Notes under the pieces: generated by a model
Told to the model about the DNA's origin: nothing
The model's database searches: none
What the model saw: only the letters and a program-made list of their open reading frames with translations
Shown here: positions 11,193-28,204 of the stretch, in pieces
Position numbering within the stretch: the first letter of the stretch is position 1
Layout of the letters: every line of letters begins with the position of its first letter
Assembly (NCBI GenBank): GCA_947501445.1
Contig: CANMVS010000013.1
Coordinates: 62,001 to 126,000 of the forward strand
DNA length: 64,000 bases
Reading direction: 5' to 3'
Source of the DNA: an uncultured Rhizobiaceae group bacterium
Lineage (GTDB): Bacteria > Pseudomonadota > Alphaproteobacteria > Rhizobiales > Rhizobiaceae
Program-made: the position numbers and the translations under genes

Positions 11193-11206
11193 AGCAAAGG
11201 GCTCTA
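11190..11206. terminator. Hairpin holding the stop codons of two convergent genes
   Basis: TAGAGC (11190-11195), a 5-base loop, and GCTCTA (11201-11206) form a 6-bp stem. The aminotransferase stop is the first TAG; the convergent beta-hydroxylase stop is the last CTA read on the minus strand. A T-run follows on the plus strand (TATTTC). It matches the outer ends of the repeat at 60962-61086. Confidence 0.5.
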
Positions 11207-11995
11207 TTTCAGAAATGACCAGTTTTTGTAGAATATTCCGTTGAATTTCAGGAATACAACCTGAATGGCTTTCATCAGAACGTTTTGCAGCCCCGGAAAA
11301 CTGGAGGGACGCAGCACGTCAACGAAGACACAATAGCGCTCATGGTCCTCTTCGTTGATTGATCTGTGCTGGATTGTGTCATCGAAAATGAAAAGCGGAT
11401 CATCATGCCAGAAATGTTTTTTGCCATCGACTTCAATAAAGATATTGTCACTTTGGATCGGCGTCAGATTGTAAAGCACCCGCAGGGTTAGCCGCAGCGG
11501 GCCGAAATGCAATGAAGTGGATTCCTTCTGGTTGAAGACCGATACACCGATTGTCTTGATATAGGTATAGTCTTCGTTGAAGGCCGGAACCGTGTCATTG
11601 GTGTTTTTGTCATACCATTTGTAGAACAGCATGCCGCGCTTTTTTCCATCCATTTGCTTACGGATGTCGCCGACAATTTCGTCCTTATTGTCGTCAAAGG
11701 TTTTCAGGACCCACTCGATTTCAGCTCTTTCCGCATCCGGAAAATCTTCCAGCCGGTAGACGTATTTGTTGCGGAATGAAATCAGATCAAGCAACAGGTT
11801 AAAGGGCGAAAGCAGCCAGGTGGGCAACCCGTTGCCCATGAAATATTTCTTCGCCAAATCGGTGGTGACCTTGTGATGGCGGGCGAGATCCAGCAATCCG
11901 CAAACGACAAAGACAATCGTGATGGTCGGGATGAGATAGAGCAATATTGCCAAAGGCAGCACAATTCTCAGATAACGGCGGATTTCTTTGCTCAT
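11204..11995 (-). CDS. Aspartyl/asparaginyl beta-hydroxylase-domain protein, membrane anchored
   Basis: A 263-residue Fe(II)/2-oxoglutarate oxygenase-like protein. The N-terminus has a hydrophobic segment (IVLPLAILLYLIPTITIVFVV, split here as about residues 9-30) that probably anchors it in the inner membrane. The C-terminal domain shows the iron-ligand histidines in LHFGPLRLTLRV and FIFDDTIQHRSINEEDHERY, and the arginine expected for 2-oxoglutarate, matching the AspH/LpxO-type pattern. The family hydroxylates Asp/Asn residues or lipid A acyl chains; the membrane anchor is compatible with a lipid or envelope substrate. I chose ATG 11995 over 12034 because conserved sequence starts there. Confidence 0.75.
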   Translation of the reverse strand: MSKEIRRYLRIVLPLAILLYLIPTITIVFVVCGLLDLARHHKVTTDLAKKYFMGNGLPTWLLSPFNLLLDLISFRNKYVYRLEDFPDAERAEIEWVLKTFDDNKDEIVGDIRKQMDGKKRGMLFYKWYDKNTNDTVPAFNEDYTYIKTIGVSVFNQKESTSLHFGPLRLTLRVLYNLTPIQSDNIFIEVDGKKHFWHDDPLFIFDDTIQHRSINEEDHERYCVFVDVLRPSSFPGLQNVLMKAIQVVFLKFNGIFYKNWSFLK

Positions 11996-12040
11996 TTGAC
12001 TACATGTCCTCAAAATTGCGGCTGGACGTCGCATCTGTTC

Positions 12041-17150: not shown

Positions 17151-18686
17151 ATGACCCCCGGGCGTATCCGCATTGAAACCCTTTCTGGTTTGACGGTTGC
17201 GCTGGCGCTTGTTCCCGAAGCTGTCGCCTTTGCCTTTGTGGCCGGTGTCAATCCGCTTGTCGGTCTGTATGCGGCTTTTATCATTTGCCTGATCACCTCT
17301 TTGTTTGGCGGACGGCCTGGCATGATTTCCGGCGCAACCGGCGCCCTGGCAGTGGTGATGGTATCGCTTGTTGCCACACATGGCGTTGAATACCTGTTTG
17401 CCGCCGTTGTCCTGATGGGCATCATTCAGTTGATCGCCGGTGCGTTCCAACTGGGCCGCTTCATACGTCTGGTGCCGCATCCGGTGATGCTGGGCTTTGT
17501 CAACGGCCTGGCAATCGTCATCTTTCTGGCTCAGTTTGAGCAATTCAAGGTTTCCGGTGCCGACGGCACAAAGTCATGGATCAGCGGATTGCCGATGCTC
17601 TATATGGTCGGTCTTGTAGCCCTGACAATGGTAGTGATCTATCTGGTTCCGAAAATCACCAAGTCTTTCCCTGCACCATTGGCCGCAATTTTGGTGGTTG
17701 CCGGGCTGGTCATAGGTTTTGATATTCCTGTGCCGCGCGTTGGCGACCTTGCATCCATCAGTGGCAGTCTGCCGGAGTTTGCTTTGCCGACCGTCCCACT
17801 GACACTGGAAACCCTGAAGATCATTTTACCCTATGCATTCATCTTTGCAGCCATCGGTCTGATAGAAAGCCTGCTGACACTCAATCTTGTCGGCGAAAAG
17901 ACCGGCACACGCGGCGGCGCATCGCAGGAGTGCATGGCCCAGGGTGCGGCCAATGTTGTGACAGGTTTTTTCGGTGGCATGGGCGGCTGTGCCATGATCG
18001 GCCAGTCAATGATCAATGTGGAATCGGGCGCTCGTACACGGCTTTCCGGATTCACAGCCGCATTGCTGTTGCTCAGCTTCATTCTTTTTGCATCGGCACT
18101 TATCGAGCAGATACCGCTGGCTGCACTGATCGGTGTCATGTTCATGGTGGTCATCGGCACATTTGCCTGGAAGAGCTTCACCATCATTGCCCGCGTGCCG
18201 CGCATGGATGCAGCCGTCATCATCATGGTTACCATCATCACCGTGATGACCGACCTGGCGATTGCTGTTGTTGCCGGTGTGATCATATCGGCGCTGGCCT
18301 ATGCCTGGAGCAATGCCACCCGAATTCGGGCCAACACAGAAGAAATTGACGGCAACATCAAGGTATATCGCATCGAGGGGCCATTGTTCTTTGGATCCGT
18401 ATCCGGATTTCTGGAGCTCTTCACCCCCAAAAGCGACCCGGCGCATGTGATCGTTGATTTTGTCAATTCGCGCGTGGCTGATCAGTCTGCCCTGCAGGCC
18501 ATTGAATCGCTCGCAGCACGCTATCAGGGCCAGGGCACAAAACTGGAACTGCGGCACCTGTCGCGTGATTGCCATACACTGCTATCGCGCGCCGGCCAAT
18601 TGATGGTCGATTCCGACGATGACCCCGACTATGGCATTGCCGTTCACTACGGCGTGCGGATCGGACGCTTCGGCGGCGCGCACTGA
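17151..18686 (+). CDS. SulP-family anion transporter with STAS domain
   Basis: A ~511-residue inner-membrane transporter of the SulP/SLC26 family. The N-terminal signature GLTVALALVPEAVAFAFVAGVNPLVGLYAAF is clear, followed by about 12-14 hydrophobic segments and GGMGGCAMIGQSMINVESGARTRLS split across the middle. The C-terminal STAS domain is at ~415-500 (KVYRIEGPLFFGSV, VIVDFVNSRVADQSAL). Members carry sulfate, bicarbonate or dicarboxylates; which one is not readable. Start choice is uncertain: ATG 17151 gives a normal short N-terminus, while the frame is open to a TTG at 17013. A 52-bp echo of the STAS region occurs at 23251. Confidence 0.82.
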   Translation: MTPGRIRIETLSGLTVALALVPEAVAFAFVAGVNPLVGLYAAFIICLITSLFGGRPGMISGATGALAVVMVSLVATHGVEYLFAAVVLMGIIQLIAGAFQLGRFIRLVPHPVMLGFVNGLAIVIFLAQFEQFKVSGADGTKSWISGLPMLYMVGLVALTMVVIYLVPKITKSFPAPLAAILVVAGLVIGFDIPVPRVGDLASISGSLPEFALPTVPLTLETLKIILPYAFIFAAIGLIESLLTLNLVGEKTGTRGGASQECMAQGAANVVTGFFGGMGGCAMIGQSMINVESGARTRLSGFTAALLLLSFILFASALIEQIPLAALIGVMFMVVIGTFAWKSFTIIARVPRMDAAVIIMVTIITVMTDLAIAVVAGVIISALAYAWSNATRIRANTEEIDGNIKVYRIEGPLFFGSVSGFLELFTPKSDPAHVIVDFVNSRVADQSALQAIESLAARYQGQGTKLELRHLSRDCHTLLSRAGQLMVDSDDDPDYGIAVHYGVRIGRFGGAH

Positions 18687-18710
18687 TGGTTGGCCTATAA
18701 GCGCTATCCT

Positions 18711-18790
18711 CCCACGAGGTTTCCCGAGCGGCACACCGTATCCCATCGAGGGCAAAAGAGTTCCCGCGAAGCGGCAAGCGCGAACGAGCA
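18711..18790. repeat. Truncated copy (copy 0) of the ~358-bp repeat, after sulP
   Basis: About 80 bp downstream of the sulP stop matches the first part of the tandem repeat at 23302-24655, including the shared GCGGCAC, GGGCAAAAGA and CGCGAAGCGGCAAGCGCGAA blocks. Similarity stops at about 18790, shortly before the end of the 1416-residue fusion gene. The fusion gene is therefore flanked on both sides by the same repeat family. Confidence 0.75.
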
Positions 18791-18830
18791 AGGGGGCTCC
18801 TACAACAATTACCCAGCATGACTTCACACC

Positions 18831-21800
18831 TCAATTAGCGCACAAAGCCAAAATTCGCTTTATTGTATCCCGGATTTTTCCCGCGATAACAACTGTGTCA
18901 GTTTCCCAGGCTGTGACCGCGAGATTGATTCCATCACCATGCGGTGTTGCACCAATTCCCCAACCACCATCACATGGAGGAAACACCAATGCAGGCATTG
19001 TCTTGTCACCGCCCACGATAGATAGGCAGAGCGGTGGATACTCAAGGCGCTGTGGATACCCCGCAGCAGCAAACAAAGGGTGTTGCTCAACTCCATTGTT
19101 GCAAGCATGATCGTAAAGGTAGTGCATGGCCCGTCGTCCAAGCTGGCCTTCCATTGCAGCAGTGTATGTACTTTGCCACCACCCCAACACATTATCTAAA
19201 AGGTCCATATCAACGCAGTTAACATCGGTTAATTGTTGCATCAGCTCAGGCGTTCCGGGAGCAGTTTCATGCACAAACTCCAAACTCAAATGCGCTATGT
19301 GTCTTCGGGAAACAGGTACATAAGGTGCTTCCAGACGACCTGTCTCCATATAAAATACGTATTGGCTCGCCAGAATAATTATCGGGATAACAGAATGATC
19401 TGGCACTTCGACAAATGTGACCGCCGCTTCGGATGCGGACAATCGAGACGCCAATTTACAAAATTTCTTATTTGTTTCTAACCATTCCTGCTCAAACTGC
19501 GGTGGAAATTTACCTATCGATTTCCATCGGCCAGCAATCTGGCGATCCCGTTTTGGCACATTGTCAAGCTGCGCAAAACGTTTCATCAAAGAATCAAAAA
19601 CGATAGCCTGGGCGCGGCCGTCAAGAATGGCGTGATCAATATACATGCCAATGTTTCCGTCCTGCTCGACAACCAGATTGGTTTTACCAAACCATCGGTT
19701 GGTGCCTGTGCCTGTCAAACCTGCGATCTTGTCAATGGTTCCATTGCTATCGGTTTGTGAAGGATTGACTGAAATGGTAAAAAGTGTGCTTTCAACTTCT
19801 GCCAGAGCCTGAGAAACGCAAGGAGGCACGTCGGTTGTCAACGCAACCCACTCATCTTTCTCCAGAGTTGTTAGCGCAGCGAGGGAGGTTGGCTGTATAT
19901 TGTCTGCGGCCGTTACTATCTGCCTGATTGAGTTGTAGAGTACATCAATCGGCAGGGCCGTGCCTTCTTCCACAACTCGTAACAGGAATACACGGGAACG
20001 ATAAAGCAGCACTGCAAATTCAGAAAACTTGTATGATAGAAGGCTGTCACTTTTGTTGCCAAATACACGCGTCACACCAAGTAAGTCCCGCATGGGGTCT
20101 GTACTATTTTGCCGCTCATCAATCCACATTGACACAAGCGCAAAAATTGATTTGGCGCATAAGTCACATAGTTCTTCTTCGCCAAGTCTCTGTGCAACTG
20201 CAATAAGACCACCCGTAACCGGTGTTGCCGGGTCGAGCGGTGTCGATCTTCGTGCTTTCAAGAACCTACTTTCTTCAAGGCGCTTGTAATCCCGTGCGTT
20301 GTCGCATTCCGAAATCCTCGCCAAAAACGATTCTGTGAAAAAGTGATTTTTTGTCAGAAACTCATCAATCAGTCTTTCATTATACTCTTTGTGCTTGTGA
20401 TTTGCATTTAGGCTGTTTCGAATTATTTGTTTAAGCCACTTTTGATCGTGTGGAGGGTGCAAACTAACTCCAGGGGCCATATCTTCGCAATCTGCTGCAG
20501 AACTGTATGAGCCTATTTCGTTAATGATCGACCTATTTGGTGCATTCACGCTCGGCAGATCCTCAGCGTCGCCAACGAACCTGAGGGAAATGTAGCTTGC
20601 AAGAGCTCCTATCGTTGGATTATCAAATATTGCCTGGGTTGGAAGATTAATCTGAAACACGGTTTCAATTCTCTGGTCCAACTCCACAAACATCAGAGAA
20701 TCTATACCCTGAGCAAAAAAACTCATGTCAGGATTTGGCAGATCTGATAGTTCGAGGATGGATTGCAGTTCCTTTTGCAGATAGTCAACAAGTAGCGCCT
20801 CACGCTCTGATGGCGGCATTGAGTGCAGTGCTTTTAAGTCCGTCAGTAAATGATCAACCGACCGAACAGCATATCCCCTATCGATGTCGTCTTCAGGCCG
20901 CTGCACATGTCTGTTGTTTGCCGTATCAAGGCCACCAAACAGGCAGGAACTGATATAGGGCTCCTCCCGTTCCGGCAGCATGTGGACATTTATGCTCTCG
21001 GGCAACCCTTTTATATGCTTAGTGATACCTGCTATGTTATCGTCCAGCAATTGATCAGCGGTATTGTGTTCGTTAGCAACAATATGAATATCCAGACGCA
21101 AGCTGCCATCACGTAACAGTCGGTAGAGACTGTAGACTTTTGCAGCTCCATCGACCAATTCCAGATGCGCATTAATGACTGTCGCCTGCGGGCAGGGACC
21201 CGCTTGCGTCTGAAAGCGGGTCAGCATAATGTGATCATGCAGGCTTACAAGTCCTGAAACCTGGTTCCAATCAGCCAATACCGGCAGCTCTCCTTCAAAA
21301 TAGCGTTGTTTGGCCACCGTCCGACGTAATTTGCCTGATGTTGTACGTGGCAGCGAGCCTGGTCGCACAAAGACAATGCCTACCGCATCAATCTCATGGG
21401 CAACAACAATGTTATGACGGATGGCACCAACAGCTTCATGAACATCAATGTCGCTTGCCGTTGACCAGTCCAGTTCATGCAGCATCAACAATTGCTCGCG
21501 GCCTTGCGTCTCAATACCCAACGCAATAGTTCGATCCGGATCAAGCCAATCCAATGCCTCCGTCGCCGTCCTCTCAAGATCATGTGCATGATGGTTCTGA
21601 CCATGCACGATGACCATATCTTTATGGCGGCCACACACGTAAAGTTCGCCATCCAACAGGGCACCCAGATCACCACTGCGTAGAAAACATCTGCCGTCGG
21701 TTTCACCGGCAAGGGTTGCGCCAAATGTTGCCTTCGTTGCCTCCGGCCTGTTCCAGTAGCCGCCAGCAACACTTGGACCAGCAAACCATATCTCACCAAT

Positions 21801-23081
21801 TGTGCCATCTGCACAAACCGTACGCGTTTGCGGATCAACGATCAGCAGTTCATGCTCATCAATCACCGGTCCACACGAAATCAATTCAGCGATCTTTGTC
21901 CCGTCATTCACATGGCCATTGGCATGCTCCGGACTGTCCACATCAACTGAAACCAATTTGCCATCCGGGATGGATTGTCCATCCACCAACGTTATTCTCG
22001 GACCACTTTGTGTTTTTGAACCGGTAACAACAAGCACGGTCTCAGCCATGCCGAGTACTTGTTTGAACCGATCAAAACAAAAACCGGCCGGTTCAAACCG
22101 GTCCGCAAATTTCCGCAGGGTAGAAACACGCACTGGCTCACCGCCACTGGCCGCAGTCTGAAGACTTGAAAGATCCAGCCCGCTGATATCTTCCTCACTT
22201 GCGGTATCGGCAACCAGCTGATAGCCGAAGTTCGGCGCACTGGTGTGGGTTGCACCATAGCGCCCAATTGCCTCCAACCACCGCACCGGCCTCTGGAGAA
22301 ACGATGTCGGAGACATCAATATGCCTCTCATGCCGGCAAATATGGGCCCAACCACACCACACATGAGCCCCATATCATGGTGAGGTGGCACCCAGTTTAT
22401 TGCAATTGAATTACCGGTTACGCCAGAAACGGCAGCTATGCGCTTTGCATTGTCCATCAAGTTGTCATGGCTGATCATAACGCCCTTGGGCAACCCCGTG
22501 GAACCCGATGTATATTGCAGATAGGCAATATCAACCTTTTTTACTTTGGGATTAATCCAGTGTACGCCAGCAGCGTGATCAATCCGGTCAACTGCAATCA
22601 GCATTGGCAACGTCTCACTATCACCGGACCACGCCATCATCTGGTCGCGCATAGCATCCGGCACCAGAATGCAGGCGCCACTTGCGTCGGCCATGATCGC
22701 TTCAAGCCCGGCCATTTGCTTTGCGTTGGAGGGCGGATAGACTGGTACCGCAATCACACCGGCCATCAGGCATCCATAGAAAGAAACAATATAGTCAGGT
22801 CCCGGGGGGCACACTATCAATACGCGATCGCCACGGGTCAGGGACTGCAGTAATGTTGCTGCAACTGCTCGTGCCTGTGCGAAAACTGCACCGCATGTCA
22901 GTTTGTCCTCACGTGGCGATCCGCTGCCTGGATAATCAATAAAGATAAAACTCTCAAATTCAGGCCTATTTTGCGCCCTGTCCACCAGCAGTTCAACCAG
23001 CGTGCCTGCGCCCTGTTCCTCTCGTGAAGGTCGTGTGATTTCGGCGGCTCTGATCTCAATACTCAATTCAATTTCTCTCAA
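18831..23081 (-). CDS. Fatty acyl-AMP ligase / acyl carrier / carnitine-choline acyltransferase-like fusion protein
   Basis: A 1416-residue multidomain protein. Residues ~25-600 are a fatty acyl-AMP ligase: YLQYTSGSTGLPKGVMISHD (~188-206), LMSPTSFLQRP, FLRSGDLG, GQNHHAHDLE. Residues ~600-740 are unassigned. Residues ~755-835 are an acyl carrier domain with phosphopantetheine Ser ~795 in FFAQGIDSLMFVEL. Residues ~880-1416 resemble carnitine/choline acyltransferases: LSYKFSEFAVLLYRSRVFLL, NRWFGKTNLVV, a catalytic-type HxxxDG (IDHAILDG, His ~1150), HETAPGTPEL and the late PPCDGGWGIGATPHGDGIN. The usual STS motif is replaced by LSI. Predicted role: activate a fatty acid, load it on the carrier and transfer it to an alcohol acceptor. 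The start is a TTG (no in-frame ATG nearby) and is uncertain. The leader is AT-rich, suggesting acquisition. Confidence 0.82.
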   Translation of the reverse strand: MREIELSIEIRAAEITRPSREEQGAGTLVELLVDRAQNRPEFESFIFIDYPGSGSPREDKLTCGAVFAQARAVAATLLQSLTRGDRVLIVCPPGPDYIVSFYGCLMAGVIAVPVYPPSNAKQMAGLEAIMADASGACILVPDAMRDQMMAWSGDSETLPMLIAVDRIDHAAGVHWINPKVKKVDIAYLQYTSGSTGLPKGVMISHDNLMDNAKRIAAVSGVTGNSIAINWVPPHHDMGLMCGVVGPIFAGMRGILMSPTSFLQRPVRWLEAIGRYGATHTSAPNFGYQLVADTASEEDISGLDLSSLQTAASGGEPVRVSTLRKFADRFEPAGFCFDRFKQVLGMAETVLVVTGSKTQSGPRITLVDGQSIPDGKLVSVDVDSPEHANGHVNDGTKIAELISCGPVIDEHELLIVDPQTRTVCADGTIGEIWFAGPSVAGGYWNRPEATKATFGATLAGETDGRCFLRSGDLGALLDGELYVCGRHKDMVIVHGQNHHAHDLERTATEALDWLDPDRTIALGIETQGREQLLMLHELDWSTASDIDVHEAVGAIRHNIVVAHEIDAVGIVFVRPGSLPRTTSGKLRRTVAKQRYFEGELPVLADWNQVSGLVSLHDHIMLTRFQTQAGPCPQATVINAHLELVDGAAKVYSLYRLLRDGSLRLDIHIVANEHNTADQLLDDNIAGITKHIKGLPESINVHMLPEREEPYISSCLFGGLDTANNRHVQRPEDDIDRGYAVRSVDHLLTDLKALHSMPPSEREALLVDYLQKELQSILELSDLPNPDMSFFAQGIDSLMFVELDQRIETVFQINLPTQAIFDNPTIGALASYISLRFVGDAEDLPSVNAPNRSIINEIGSYSSAADCEDMAPGVSLHPPHDQKWLKQIIRNSLNANHKHKEYNERLIDEFLTKNHFFTESFLARISECDNARDYKRLEESRFLKARRSTPLDPATPVTGGLIAVAQRLGEEELCDLCAKSIFALVSMWIDERQNSTDPMRDLLGVTRVFGNKSDSLLSYKFSEFAVLLYRSRVFLLRVVEEGTALPIDVLYNSIRQIVTAADNIQPTSLAALTTLEKDEWVALTTDVPPCVSQALAEVESTLFTISVNPSQTDSNGTIDKIAGLTGTGTNRWFGKTNLVVEQDGNIGMYIDHAILDGRAQAIVFDSLMKRFAQLDNVPKRDRQIAGRWKSIGKFPPQFEQEWLETNKKFCKLASRLSASEAAVTFVEVPDHSVIPIIILASQYVFYMETGRLEAPYVPVSRRHIAHLSLEFVHETAPGTPELMQQLTDVNCVDMDLLDNVLGWWQSTYTAAMEGQLGRRAMHYLYDHACNNGVEQHPLFAAAGYPQRLEYPPLCLSIVGGDKTMPALVFPPCDGGWGIGATPHGDGINLAVTAWETDTVVIAGKIRDTIKRILALCAN

Positions 23082-23151
23082 ATATAAACCGGATACTTGT
23101 ATATCCTAAACAATAACTCAAATGTACTTATAAATTATTTTTTTACTTAAA

Positions 23152-23167
23152 ACCAGTATATATTGGT
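23152..23167. promoter_or_regulatory. Palindrome in the AT-rich leader of the fusion gene
   Basis: ACCAGTATATATTGGT is a 16-bp near-perfect palindrome 70 bases upstream of the fusion gene start. The surrounding ~170 bases (23082-23250) are much richer in A and T than any neighbouring region and probably hold the promoter. No cognate regulator is encoded nearby. Confidence 0.4.
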
Positions 23168-23250
23168 AATACACATAAATTGCATATGCTTTTTGAGAAT
23201 TTTACAAAAATTTACTTGATTTCACTTGTGACTACACACAAAACGATCTC

Positions 23251-23302
23251 GCGCGTGCAATCGCAGATATTGTCAATTCGCGCGTTGCAGATCAGTTTGC
23301 CC
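23251..23302 (+). pseudogene. Short sulP-like remnant at the start of the repeat array
   Basis: These 52 bases match 18441-18492 inside the STAS part of the SulP gene at 43 of 52 positions without gaps, including a shared 16-mer. In the matching frame it reads ARAIADIVNSRVADQFA against AHVIVDFVNSRVADQSA. There is no start, and the match breaks off exactly where the repeat array begins. I read it as a gene fragment left by duplication or rearrangement, although a chance match to another STAS gene cannot be excluded. Confidence 0.5.
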
Positions 23303-24655
23303 CTCGAGAGTTTTCCCGGGCGGCACGCCGTTCACTATCGAGGACAAAAGAATTACCCGCGAAGCGGCAAGCGCGAATTGCGCGTCGGGCCTGATGGCCC
23401 GTCCCGTCTGGAGCCAGCGCCGACAGGCGCGATGCGGCGTGAAGACATTCATACAAAGCCATCAGTGTTCGGGTTGCAGCGCAGACGAGACGTCCTGTGA
23501 ACACGTGGGTTTGTCAGAAGGGGTTGATTTGTTTTCTATTCACGGCGCACCGGCGCTGGCGCGCCTGCCTCCATAGGGGGCGGCCAAATTATTGGCCGGG
23601 CCGCGGTCGCGGCCTGTTTGAGTGCTATGCAGACAGGCACCCGGTGCGGCAGACTCTGACTCTCAGTATTTCCCGAACAGCATACCGTGCCCCATCAAGG
23701 ACAAAAGAATTCCCGCGAAGCGGCAAGCGCGAATTGCGCGTCGGGGCATATGCCCCGCCCCGTCTGGAGCCAGCGCCGATAGGCGCGATACGGCGTGAAG
23801 ACATTTATACAAAGCTATCGATGATCGGGTCGCAGCGCAGAAGAGACTTCCTGTGAACACGTGGGTTTGGCTGGCGGGGTTGTTTTTTGTTTTCTATTCA
23901 CGGCGCACCGGCGCTGGCGCGCCTGCCTCCATAGGGGGCGGCCAAATTATTGGCCGGGCCACAGTCGTGGCCTGTTTGAGTGCCATGCAGGATGGCAGCA
24001 GGTGCTGCGAACTGTGACTCTCGAGATTTCTCGGGCGGCACACCGTGCCCTATCGAGAGGACACGGTTACCCGCGCAGCGGGCAAGCGCGAATTGCGCGT
24101 CGGGGCTTATGCCCCGCCCCGTCTGGAGCCAGCGCCGTAAGGCGCGATACGGCGCGAAGACAGTGCTACAAAGCCATCAGTGATCAGGGTGCGGCGCAGA
24201 AGAGACTTCCTGTGAACACGTGGGTTTGGCAGGCGGGGATGATTTGTTTTCTATTCACGGCGCACCGGCGCTTTCGCGCCTGCCTCCATAGGGGGCGGTC
24301 AAATTATTGACCGGGCCGCCGTCGCGGCCTGATTGAGTGCCATGCAGGATGGTACCCGGTGCTGCGAACTCTGACTCTCGAGAATTTTCGCGAGCGGCAC
24401 ATCGAGCCCTATCAAGGGCAAAAGAATTACCGCGAAGCGGCAAGCGCGAACGCGCGTCGGGGCTTATGCCCCGCCCCGTCTGGAGCCAGCGCTGTTAGGC
24501 GCGGTTCGGCGTGAAGACTGCTATACAAAGCCATCAATAACCGGGCCACAACGCAGCAGAGACGTCCTGTGAACACGTGGGTTTGGCTGGCGGGATTGAG
24601 TTTTTTCCATTCACGGTGCACCGGCGCTGGCGCGCCTGCATCCATGGTGCTGCGT
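23302..24655. repeat. Tandem array of a structured ~358-bp repeat (3 full copies and 1 truncated)
   Basis: Copies start at about 23302, 23661, 24019 and 24376, so periods are 359, 358 and 357 bases; the last stops at about 24655. Each unit holds several perfect hairpins in fixed order: a CGGG(C/G)C-type stem (23386-23401 in copy 1), a GCGCC stem (23417-23430), GGCGC (23552-23565), GGCCAA (23582-23597) and GGCCGC (23599-23614). Loops vary while stems stay paired, with compensatory changes in at least three stems. Small indels between copies are not multiples of three, so it is not coding. It fills the gene-free 1.7 kb between the fusion gene and the SDR gene. Function unknown: a repeated structured RNA or a DNA-level extragenic element. 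Confidence 0.85.
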
Positions 24656-24758
24656 TATGGGGAGCCGAGGCCAAAGTGACTTTTCGCACAGAATTAAAAC
24701 ACCCGGAAACCGAACTTCTTCGTCCGCATAACAGGCATTTACAGGCAGTTTCTACCAA

Positions 24759-25508
24759 TCAAACGTGCTGTCCGCCGTTGATATGGATTTCGCTGCCGGT
24801 GACATAGGACGCGCTGTTGGAACACAGGAAAAATATTGTCTCCGCAACTTCTGCTGTCGTGCCAAGGCGGCGCAGCGGAATATTGTCGAGCATTTTTTCC
24901 GTTCCCGGCGACAGGATCGCAGTATCTATCTCACCGGGCGCAATGGCATTGACCCGAATACCATGCGGTCCGAAATCTGCAGCCATCTCGCGCGTCAGTG
25001 ACGACAGGGCGGCTTTTGAGGTTGCATAGGCGGTGCCAGCAAAGGGATGAACACGCGAACCGGCAATGGATGTCACATTGACAATGGAACCCTGCCCGGC
25101 AGCCAGTTCCTTGAACAGGCCCCTTGCCAGCATGATCGGGGCGAAAAAATTAACCTGAAAGACATCACGCCATGTATGCATGGGCGTTTCAAGTGAGTTG
25201 AGACGCTCATTTTCACCCTTTTTCGGTGAAATCCCGGCATTATTAACCAGTGCGTGCAGCTCACCGCCTTCCTTTTCGATGCGGTGGCGAATATCTGCTA
25301 CGGCGCTGCCCACGTCTTCCGGATCCGACAGGTCAATCTTGATATGATCGTCGGGACCTGCCGGCCAGGGGCAATTTTCGGCAAAGTCCTGCCGCGAACA
25401 GGTAATGACCCGCCAGCCTTCCATTGAGAAGCGTTTAACCGTTGCGTGTCCTATACCGCGGCTTGCGCCCGTCAGAACCAGAGTCTTGCGACCGGTGCTC
25501 TCACTCAT
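24759..25508 (-). CDS. Short-chain dehydrogenase/reductase
   Basis: A 249-residue classical SDR. The cofactor motif TGASRGIGHA, NNAG (VNNAGISPKKGE), the catalytic Ser in NVTSIAGSR and the YxxxK in GTAYATSKAAL are all present, ending in GSEIHINGGQHV. A good GGAG ribosome site precedes two consecutive ATG codons (25511 and 25508); I chose the second for spacing. It stands alone between the repeat array and the divergent hrpB gene. Substrate unknown. Confidence 0.88.
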   Translation of the reverse strand: MSESTGRKTLVLTGASRGIGHATVKRFSMEGWRVITCSRQDFAENCPWPAGPDDHIKIDLSDPEDVGSAVADIRHRIEKEGGELHALVNNAGISPKKGENERLNSLETPMHTWRDVFQVNFFAPIMLARGLFKELAAGQGSIVNVTSIAGSRVHPFAGTAYATSKAALSSLTREMAADFGPHGIRVNAIAPGEIDTAILSPGTEKMLDNIPLRRLGTTAEVAETIFFLCSNSASYVTGSEIHINGGQHV

Positions 25509-25708
25509 CATAGGTCTCCGCAGAAATGATTGCCATCTGTCTTGTATGTAACGCACCATGGGTGTGATAGCGAGGGTTGGCGGACAAAATAGACAGCACC
25601 AATTGCCGCGCTGCCTTCATACCTGTTAGAGCAGTGCCAATGAATGCGTCTGGTTGTCAGTTCGCCCGGCTGACTGACGGCAAATTGTAAAATTCAACGA
25701 AGACACAC

Positions 25709-28204
25709 ATGCCAATGTACAACGCCCTGCCGATCCTGCCAGTCAGTGACGTTATGCCCGCTTTGCTTGCGGCTTTGGATGCGGATACATGTGCCGTTCT
25801 GGCAGCCCCCCCTGGTGCAGGCAAAACCACATTGGTGCCGCTTCACCTGCTTTCCGCCCCATGGCGCGGCGATGGTAAGATCATTGTGCTTGAACCAAGG
25901 CGACTGGCCGCACGCGCCAGTGCCCGGCAGATGGCACGCCTGATTGGCGAAGATGTTGGCGGCACTATCGGGTTCCGCACCCGTCTCGATACCCGCGTCA
26001 GTGCGCGCACACGCATTGAAGTCGTAACAGAGGGCATATTTGTCCGTATGCTGCTTGATGATCCGGAATTGCCGGGTGTTGCAGCGGTACTGTTTGATGA
26101 GTTTCATGAGCGCACGCTGGATGCCGATTTCGGCTTGGCTCTGGCATTGGATATTCAACAGGCCCTGCGTGAAGATCTGCGCATTCTTGTAATGTCGGCG
26201 ACACTGGATGTGGAACGGGTATCAAGGCTGATGGGCGGCGCGGCAGCCGTTGAAAGCACCGGACGGGCCTTCCCAATTGATGTGCGCTATCAGGAGCGCC
26301 GCCATGGCATGCGCATCGAAACGGCAGTCTGCGATGGTATATTGAATGCTCTGAGGCAGGAAACCGGATCCATTCTGGCCTTTTTACCCGGGCAGGCAGA
26401 AATCAGGCGCACCGCAGAGTTGCTGGAAAAGGCCAGTATCGAGGATGCCACCATCACGCCTCTTTATGGCGATCTGAGCGCTGCTGCGCAGGATCAGGCA
26501 ATTCGCGCACCGGCCGCTGGCGAGCGCAAAATTGTTCTGGCGACAGCAATAGCAGAGACATCAATCACCATAGACGGCGTGCGCATCGTTATCGACAGTG
26601 GCCTGCAGCGCCTGCCGGTTTTCGAGCCGTCAACAGGCATTACCCGACTGGAAACAGTTCGGGTTTCAAAGGCATCCGCAGATCAGCGTGCCGGGCGCGC
26701 AGGCCGCACGGAACCTGGCATTGCCATCCGTCTGTGGCGTCGTGAACAGACCGCTGCCCTTGCGGATTTCACACCACCACAAATTCTGTCAACAGACCTC
26801 AGTAACCTGTTGCTTGATTGTTGCGCATGGGGCGTTTCGGACCCTGCAGCAATGGCTTTTATTGACCCGCCACCCGAAGCGGCAATTAATGAGGCCCGTG
26901 TGCTGCTGCATTCTCTGGGTGCGCTGGATGAGGCAGGCCAGCTGACCGCCGATGGGCGGCTGATGCGCCAGTTGGGCCTGCCCACGCGGCTTGCAGCAGT
27001 GGTCATTGCAGCTGACCGATCCGGTCTGGCCTATCCGGCCGCGGAGCTTGCGGTGCTGATGGGCGAACGCGGTCTGGGTGGCAATGCCATCGATCTTGAT
27101 GTGCGTTGGCAGCAGTTTCGTGCGTCAAAGGGACCGCGTGAACAAAAAGCAAGGGCATTGGCACGGCGTATCGCCAGCACATTGCCAAATGCACGCAAGA
27201 CATCAGCAAACTCCGGCCCTGTTCCTGGCGCTGCTTCTTTGCTGCTCCACGGCTTTTCCGACCGGGTGGCCCGTCGAAGAGGCCAGGCTGACACCGCGCA
27301 AATCCGCTATGGGCTGGCCAATGGACGCGGTGCCTTTGTGGAAGATCATGCGCCCCTGGCGCAGAATGAATTTCTGGTGGTAGCCGATCTCACCGGGAAA
27401 ATCGCTTCGCAACGCATTCTGTCAGCCGCGCCTATTGACCGCATCACCATCAATGAGGCACTGGCAGAGAAAATCACCCGGGAAGAGGCGGTCTCATTCG
27501 TCACAAAGACGAAAAGTGTCAAGGCGCGCAAACAGCTGCGCCTCGGCAGACTTGTTCTGGAGGAAACGCCCCTTGCAAACCCCTCTGCGCAGGCCATTGG
27601 CATTGCTCTGGAACAGGGCCTGCAATCACTTGGCATTGATGTCCTGCCGTGGTCACCAGCCGCAAAACAGTTGCGCCAACGCATCAAATGGCTGCATCTC
27701 AACATTGGACCACCATGGCCCGCTATGGACGACAAGGCCCTTTTGTCAAATACAGCGACATGGTTCACGCCCTTTCAAAACGGCATCACAGGATTTGCTG
27801 ATATATCGGCAGGCAGCCTGACACACGGGCTGATGGCGCTTTTACCCTATACATTGCACAGTGAGATCGACCGGCTTGCACCGACGCATTTCAAGGCGCC
27901 CACGGGATCCAGCATACCAATTCGCTATGAGGGCGATGAACCGGTCCTGGCCATTCGGGTACAGGAACTTTTCGGCCTGAAGCAGCATCCAAGCCTTGCC
28001 AATGGGCAGGTGCCATTGTTGCTCGAGTTGCTGTCACCGGCGCAACGGCCTATCCAGACAACACGCGATCTGCCCGGCTTCTGGCAGGGCTCCTGGGCTG
28101 ACGTGCGAGCAGAGATGCGGGGGCGCTACCCGCGTCATCCCTGGCCGGAAGATCCGTCCGACGCGGAAGCGACGCGCCGTGTCAAACATCCGAGAAAAAG
28201 ATAG
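25709..28204 (+). CDS. hrpB: ATP-dependent helicase HrpB
   Basis: An 831-residue DEAH-box helicase. Motif I is APPGAGKTTLVP (~35-46), motif II FDEFHERTLDADF (a DEFH variant typical of HrpB), motif III MSATLD, motif V ATAIAETSITIDGV and motif VI ADQRAGRAGRTEPG. The C-terminal HrpB-specific region ends in DVRAEMRGRYPRHPWPEDP, a characteristic tail. Its physiological role in bacteria is poorly defined; RNA remodelling is the usual inference. It starts at an ATG 200 bp from the divergent SDR and ends 31 bases before actS. Confidence 0.93.
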   Translation: MPMYNALPILPVSDVMPALLAALDADTCAVLAAPPGAGKTTLVPLHLLSAPWRGDGKIIVLEPRRLAARASARQMARLIGEDVGGTIGFRTRLDTRVSARTRIEVVTEGIFVRMLLDDPELPGVAAVLFDEFHERTLDADFGLALALDIQQALREDLRILVMSATLDVERVSRLMGGAAAVESTGRAFPIDVRYQERRHGMRIETAVCDGILNALRQETGSILAFLPGQAEIRRTAELLEKASIEDATITPLYGDLSAAAQDQAIRAPAAGERKIVLATAIAETSITIDGVRIVIDSGLQRLPVFEPSTGITRLETVRVSKASADQRAGRAGRTEPGIAIRLWRREQTAALADFTPPQILSTDLSNLLLDCCAWGVSDPAAMAFIDPPPEAAINEARVLLHSLGALDEAGQLTADGRLMRQLGLPTRLAAVVIAADRSGLAYPAAELAVLMGERGLGGNAIDLDVRWQQFRASKGPREQKARALARRIASTLPNARKTSANSGPVPGAASLLLHGFSDRVARRRGQADTAQIRYGLANGRGAFVEDHAPLAQNEFLVVADLTGKIASQRILSAAPIDRITINEALAEKITREEAVSFVTKTKSVKARKQLRLGRLVLEETPLANPSAQAIGIALEQGLQSLGIDVLPWSPAAKQLRQRIKWLHLNIGPPWPAMDDKALLSNTATWFTPFQNGITGFADISAGSLTHGLMALLPYTLHSEIDRLAPTHFKAPTGSSIPIRYEGDEPVLAIRVQELFGLKQHPSLANGQVPLLLELLSPAQRPIQTTRDLPGFWQGSWADVRAEMRGRYPRHPWPEDPSDAEATRRVKHPRKR

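Follow-up and report, generated by a model that had tools for sequence, protein, structure and literature searches.

A single open reading frame joining a fatty acyl-AMP ligase, an acyl carrier and a carnitine acyltransferase-like domain in a Rhizobiaceae bacterium: a candidate acyl-ester synthase

The nearest published parallel to the protein described here is found in fungal highly reducing polyketide synthases (PKSs), including LtbA, Tv6-931 and MaPKS17a, in which a carrier is followed by a carnitine/choline acyltransferase (CarAT) domain that offloads the acyl group to an alcohol or to water; the release routes reported are transfer to glucinol, transfer to polyols in vitro, and hydrolysis (PMC10901484). 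Fatty acyl-AMP ligases (FAALs) are reported to load carriers and to reject coenzyme A (CoA) (PMC8460268), and bacterial loaders such as HapA and NocH join a FAAL to its own acyl carrier protein (ACP) and pass the acyl chain to a PKS (PMC11837247). The present gene encodes a FAAL, an ACP and a CarAT domain in one chain (the fusion) and lies in a 64,000-nucleotide stretch of contig CANMVS010000013.1 from an uncultured Rhizobiaceae bacterium; this whole stretch is called the window, and all positions refer to it unless a contig or locus label is given. As in HapA and NocH, the FAAL of the fusion is joined to its own carrier, and an 836-residue Anabaena FAAL-ACP protein is 32% identical to it over 831 columns; in the fusion, however, an acyltransferase stands behind the carrier. 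Compared with the fungal PKSs, the acyl group would come from a free acid activated by the FAAL, and the host is bacterial. Pfam finds no ketosynthase or other PKS domain in the fusion, which consequently is not a member of the fungal PKS cAT class, although it may work alike.

The gene (Table 1) is one intact open reading frame (ORF) of 1416 residues with the start codon TTG; the frame measures 1424 codons from stop to stop, and the sequence from 18000 to 26000 contains zero N. Pfam returns AMP-binding (residues 35–443, E 8.9e-65), PP-binding (766–831, E 3.2e-13) and Carn_acyltransf (PF00755; 989–1395, E 1.8e-28; 99.9 bits, the curated cut-off being 22.3) in that order, all three above cut-off. 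An earlier reading made from the sequence only had proposed these domains in this order, and both the identities and the coordinates it gave for motifs and domains proved correct on rechecking. The occurrence of the three domains in order in one frame is not explained by chance. The fusion is real, intact and unusual, a new combination of known parts in which each step has a precedent. The best explanation, which we regard as probable but far from certain, is that the protein is a single-chain, CoA-independent acyl-ester synthase that would release an acyl ester from its carrier onto a carnitine-like hydroxyl acceptor.

By sequence comparison, the ligase part is a FAAL. It is matched by 17 PDB sequences at E <1e-40, led by chain 7r7g (5.2e-124 over residues 29–605, deposited as a polyketide synthase) and followed by chains named fatty-acid-AMP ligase, including FadD23 (8.7e-93), FadD32, FadD28 and 3pbk (5.6e-61). 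The ANL adenylation motifs and the C-terminal Lys are present (TSGSTGLPKG at 191–200 and TTSGKLRR at 580–587). Furthermore, the segment between residues 325 and 425 comprises 101 residues. Two other AMP-binding ligases encoded by this genome, taken as acyl-CoA ligases, have 66 and 63 there, which gives the fusion an excess of 35 and 38 residues at the FAAL-specific insertion; the same segment has 98, 99 and 90 residues in three other FAALs. The best of 100 NCBIfam families for the fusion protein is an NRPS/PKS model (3e-139, under that model's cut-off), and the second is the fatty-acid--AMP ligase family NF004509 (5.5e-129 over 27–598), for which the score of 431 bits lies below the cut-off of 775. 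The other NCBIfam FAAL models listed are likewise scored under their cut-offs, all of them being narrow subfamily models.

The carrier domain contains a GIDSL motif at 792–796, the serine of which is Ser795. A stretch of about 130 residues lacking an assigned domain had been proposed between ligase and carrier; such a stretch exists, but it is about 160 residues long (606–765), and it has no match in Pfam, the PDB or plasmid records. A PF01648 search of the same genome identified one phosphopantetheinyl transferase, a 278-residue ORF on contig C7 that by eye reads as Sfp-type and is a candidate for arming the carrier. This transferase is also present in 2 of 7 same-genus genomes, with 62% identity.

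The C-terminal part carries the CarAT motifs NRWFGKT (1128–1134), His1150 and GGWGIGATPHGDGIN (1372–1386). A profile was built from nine canonical standalone bacterial CarATs, leaving out the query, sequences L001 and L003, and a CarAT relic found elsewhere in the genome. Searched against four sequences, to which alone its E-values refer, this profile scores the window protein at 75 bits over residues 993–1286, compared to 461 bits for mouse carnitine acetyltransferase, 126 for L001 and 60 for L003. The Pfam and profile results are independent support for the CarAT identity. An AlphaFold2 model of the domain from 13 sequences has a mean predicted local distance difference test score (pLDDT) of 71.2 and a predicted template modelling score (pTM) of 0.75, with a pLDDT of only about 56 near His1150. 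In Foldseek, 28 carnitine/choline acyltransferase chains lead the matches to this model with query TM-scores (TMq) of 0.77–0.83, and the two-lobed fold claimed in the sequence-only reading is thus recovered; a different fold, named beforehand as the outcome that would speak against the claim, did not appear. An earlier model (pLDDT 52.9; TMq of 0.59–0.65 to CarATs) was dropped in favor of this one. A divergent condensation domain was ruled out, as condensation domains reach a TMq of about 0.3 compared to about 0.8 for CarATs; nonribosomal peptide synthetase (NRPS) condensation-type domains and wax ester synthase lie near TM 0.3 among the best 50 of 65 matches at E <0.001.

The active site was compared column by column with that of mouse carnitine acetyltransferase in one joint alignment, with counts taken over the nine canonical rows. 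His1150 aligns with His343 (His in 8/9 rows, Gln in one), which agrees with the catalytic His predicted near this position. Asp1154 occupies the Glu347 column (Asp in 9/9), Tyr1254 the Tyr452 column (Tyr in 7/9) and Phe1367 the Phe566 column (Phe in 9/9), while Arg1317 falls at Arg518, where the relic also has Arg. The Thr465 column (Thr in seven of the nine rows) contains Leu1267, and that of Thr467 contains Phe1269. On the CoA side, the Lys419 column is a gap in the fusion (Lys in 2/9), Glu1225 replaces Lys423 (Lys in 6/9), and Ile1232 stands at Asp430, which is Asp in all nine rows and a gap in L001 and L003. We take Lys419 and Lys423 of the mouse enzyme to be the CoA-phosphate lysines, and Arg518, Tyr452 and Thr465 to mark the carnitine-using subgroup, with Arg518 binding the carnitine carboxylate. 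The fusion domain has the fold, the His and several active-site positions in common with standalone carnitine/choline acyltransferases, but differs from them in the absence of the aligned CoA-side residues and in being joined to its acyl donor. The missing Lys419 and Lys423 are retained as weak evidence suggesting carrier use. At the place of the Ser-Thr-Ser (STS) motif, phmmer, a column check of alignment A3 and the joint mouse alignment all give C1352-L1353-S1354, with the third Ser (Ser554 position) retained as Ser1354; the exact STS occurs in only 4/9 canonical rows. The previous assignment of LSI to this position was off by one residue, and the changed acceptor argued from it loses its support, since the alignments give CLS with the third Ser kept.

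The CarAT domain retains His1150, has Arg where the carnitine carboxylate would bind and lacks the CoA-side residues, so that ester release from the carrier onto a carnitine-like hydroxyl acceptor is the best mechanism. The domain order, motifs and fold are read from the sequence and model, and the catalytic steps are those expected from the families. In the proposed mechanism, the FAAL would first convert a free fatty acid and ATP to the acyl-AMP, refusing CoA. Next, it would transfer the acyl chain to the phosphopantetheine attached to Ser795, an arm that the apparent Sfp-type transferase of this genome would install. The CarAT domain, at the place of a condensation domain, would then accept the acyl-carrier thioester in place of acyl-CoA, and His1150 would deprotonate the hydroxyl of a small acceptor, freeing the acyl ester. 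The carrier-to-alcohol transfer suggested in the sequence-only reading appears plausible given the fungal precedent (PMC10901484).

The acceptor most likely bears a carboxylate and an amine, like carnitine, judging from few aligned residues; Arg1317 in particular favors an acceptor with a carboxylate. Taken by itself, the carnitine-like acceptor is a tentative proposal and the weakest point of the explanation. A possible source lies elsewhere in the genome, which has standalone CarAT genes on contigs C16 and C19. Directly beside the C19 gene is a dioxygenase gene (L020:7428-10514) that is closest to TmpA (1.2e-65) and then to gamma-butyrobetaine dioxygenase (8.7e-28), under the curated cut-offs of both. 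With such a gene beside a CarAT, hydroxylated quaternary amines might be produced in this cell, a suggestion linked to the fusion by genome content only. The same region includes an AMP-binding ligase further along and, by eye, two short-chain dehydrogenases. Should the acyl-ester reading be correct, the fusion would be a bacterial counterpart of CarAT-domain carrier-to-alcohol release with the entire acyl-ester assembly in one chain, and a compact catalyst for converting free fatty acids to acylcarnitine-like or other esters. It would also place a CarAT domain in an NRPS condensation-domain slot, the two folds being distantly similar (Foldseek TM about 0.3). The full proposal, that one protein turns free fatty acids into acylcarnitine-like esters at the expense of ATP while bypassing acyl-CoA, and that it arose by a condensation-domain-to-CarAT swap in a bacterium possibly making its own quaternary-amine acceptor, is speculative and rather unlikely to hold in all its parts.

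Two further FAALs of like kind occur in the same genome (E <1e-40). One, on contig C8, is 60% identical to the window FAAL and begins a 3851-residue lipopeptide synthetase (L048:2322-13877) with a reductase at its end; the other, on C5, is 44% identical and begins a PKS-NRPS of >5000 residues that is cut by the contig end. The FAAL-linker-carrier cassette of the fusion (residues 25–831) shares 51% identity over 826 columns with the start of the C8 synthetase, in which the beginning of the linker after the ligase is also conserved. After this cassette come condensation, adenylation, carrier and reductase domains in the C8 synthetase, and the CarAT domain of the fusion occupies the place of the apparent condensation domain that follows in C8. 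Pfam detects AMP-binding, condensation and carrier domains three times each in the C8 protein, whose order, judged from these matches and the motif positions, appears to be FAAL-carrier-condensation-condensation-adenylation-carrier-condensation-adenylation-carrier-reductase; a fourth carrier may be marked by a further GLDSL at position 1199. The product is probably a lipopeptide aldehyde or alcohol. Residues 1–850 of the fusion matched 20 of 121 genomes, its own included, and had no match at 1e-60 in 7 same-genus genomes (seven best candidates per genome scored). The earlier description of the fusion as a self-contained system is only half right, as a related loading cassette begins the C8 synthetase and the acceptor needs another source.

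No second example of the fusion was seen in the genomes sampled, the contig scans or the plasmid records, all of them short of exhaustive. A protein search with the CarAT domain matched 2 of 61 relatives, 11 of 397 genomes of the order, 2 of 385 of the class and 2 of 398 of the phylum, in overlapping sets that each count the fusion's own genome; the listed matches outside that genome are open frames of 589–640 residues, too short for the fusion. PF00755 matched 12 of 297 genomes and, in a sample of the phylum, 3 of 299 (own genome included), so that the family is rare in the latter sample, and the matches outside the own genome have frames of 573–670 residues. Pattern scans of contigs, which detect close relatives only, matched 10 stretches with full-length and 14 with CarAT-alignment patterns, and tblastn showed no relative among them. 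The CarAT domain had zero matches at E 0.01 in 72,556 plasmid records; the full protein matched 1564 records, none covering 80% of the query and, among the 40 matches listed, none past residue 828. In the open-licence literature no FAAL-carnitine acyltransferase fusion was found described; PMC8070225 and PMC7786193 mention FAAL and carnitine, and in their available parts neither concerns such a fusion.

Several observations weigh against the acyl-ester reading. Since the fusion was seen in one genome only, as one copy, and the searches gave no homologous fusion, its function cannot be argued from conservation. Its CarAT domain is 16–19% identical to other CarATs, so that single-residue alignments are uncertain. 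Residues 875–988 lie outside both the Pfam stretch and the profile match, and the latter ends short of 1317; the model alignments contained true CarATs, which favors the fold and makes that result not fully independent. Lys419, Lys423 and Arg518 vary among the bacterial standalone rows (at Arg518, 4/9 Arg and 5/9 Gln) and are therefore poor markers in bacteria, while Leu1267 and Phe1269 would speak against carnitine itself as the acceptor. No evident acceptor-making gene lies beside the fusion among its window neighbors (these include a SulP transporter and a short-chain dehydrogenase, with an aldehyde dehydrogenase and an aldolase recognized by eye), and the dioxygenase gene is on another contig. 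Furthermore, repeats are found on both flanks of the gene, and its GC content at third codon positions (GC3), 0.470, is the lowest among 30 window ORFs tabulated.

Other explanations share some of this evidence. The same chemistry could end on a polyol, a sugar or another alcohol unlike carnitine, as in the fungal enzymes; characterized fungal cAT domains take glucinol or, in vitro, polyols (PMC10901484), and Leu and Phe stand at the Thr465 and Thr467 positions, but the Arg at the Arg518 position in both fusion and relic argues for a carboxylate, and this acceptor class is a possible, if unlikely, choice. That the FAAL-ACP part is a loading or editing module supplying the C8 or C5 synthetases in trans, with the CarAT domain merely hydrolysing or recycling acyl chains, is improbable: the cassette resembles the C8 synthetase start, and the MaPKS17a cAT is reported to free its product by hydrolysis (PMC10901484), but C8 and C5 each carry their own FAAL and the fusion gene sits on a different contig from both.

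Carnitine acyltransferases are reversible, and the CarAT domain might instead shift an acyl group from acylcarnitine or acyl-CoA to the carrier. Release and recapture are described for Tv6-931 (PMC10901484); the FAAL of the same chain is, however, already able to load the carrier, and the aligned CoA-loop residues are absent, leaving little probability for this direction. Least probable is a decaying gene or an assembly chimera of two genes, in favor of which are the adjoining repeats, the broken CarAT piece elsewhere in the genome, and the difference in GC content between the FAAL (0.524) and CarAT (0.469) parts. Against it stand 1416 open codons with no N and the key motifs of three domains retained; moreover, base composition does not break sharply at the carrier-CarAT joint, because the carrier on its FAAL side is itself low in GC (0.447), and the GC3 of the C8 synthetase is similar (0.463).

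Table 1. Features of the fusion gene and its flanks (window positions)
Feature	Position	Strand	Basis
Whole gene, FAAL-linker-ACP-CarAT fusion; 1416 codons, possibly 1411 from second TTG at 23066	18831..23081	-	ORF and Pfam
Fatty acyl-AMP ligase domain, residues 25–605	21267..23009	-	Pfam and PDB matches
FAAL-specific insertion region, about residues 354–400	21882..22022	-	Segment length comparison
Linker after ligase, residues 606–765	20787..21266	-	Between domains; first part aligns well with C8 synthetase
Acyl carrier domain, residues 766–831; phosphopantetheine Ser795 at 20697–20699	20589..20786	-	Pfam, GIDSL
Carrier-to-CarAT linker, residues 832–874	20460..20588	-	Position between the two domains
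Choline/carnitine acyltransferase-like domain, about residues 875–1416	18834..20459	-	Pfam, AlphaFold model, Foldseek
Putative catalytic His1150 (opposite mouse His343)	19632..19634	-	Joint alignment
Residues 1221–1233, place of CoA-binding loop	19383..19421	-	Joint alignment
Arg1317 (opposite Arg518)	19131..19133	-	Joint alignment
C1352-L1353-S1354, place of Ser-Thr-Ser motif	19020..19028	-	Three alignments
Four-copy tandem array of 357-base genome-wide repeat, directly upstream of gene	23303..24645	.	Repeat search
Piece of same 357-base repeat, downstream of gene	18716..18798	.	Repeat search

The relic mentioned above lies outside the window (L018:8332-8661, contig C13:168358-168642). It is the remnant of a second CarAT of the same subgroup and retains C-terminal residues only; these 95–99 residues are 46–47% identical to the C-terminus of the fusion CarAT domain, and no further match to the query was found upstream of it. 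Near each of the two standalone CarAT genes is a membrane protein of one family (L019:5141-5881 and L020:12176-12967; 55% mutual identity), with no Pfam family over cut-off. The window itself contains, 7 kb from the fusion at 11204–12034, an aspartyl/asparaginyl hydroxylase-like gene that matches the lipid hydroxylases LpxO and OlsC weakly, under their cut-offs. The 357-base repeat has at least 98 matches genome-wide, counted from 40 scored candidates out of 78, and many of them form arrays and sit at the ends of contigs. The SulP gene has a 63-base stretch of its 3' part (18430–18492) repeated at 79% identity upstream of the fusion (23240–23302), so that SulP tail and repeat occur on both sides of the fusion gene. 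The protein has no Met before residue 106, so that its start codon is a TTG or a GTG; residue 6, at the second TTG, may be the true start, as by eye GAGAGAA precedes it.

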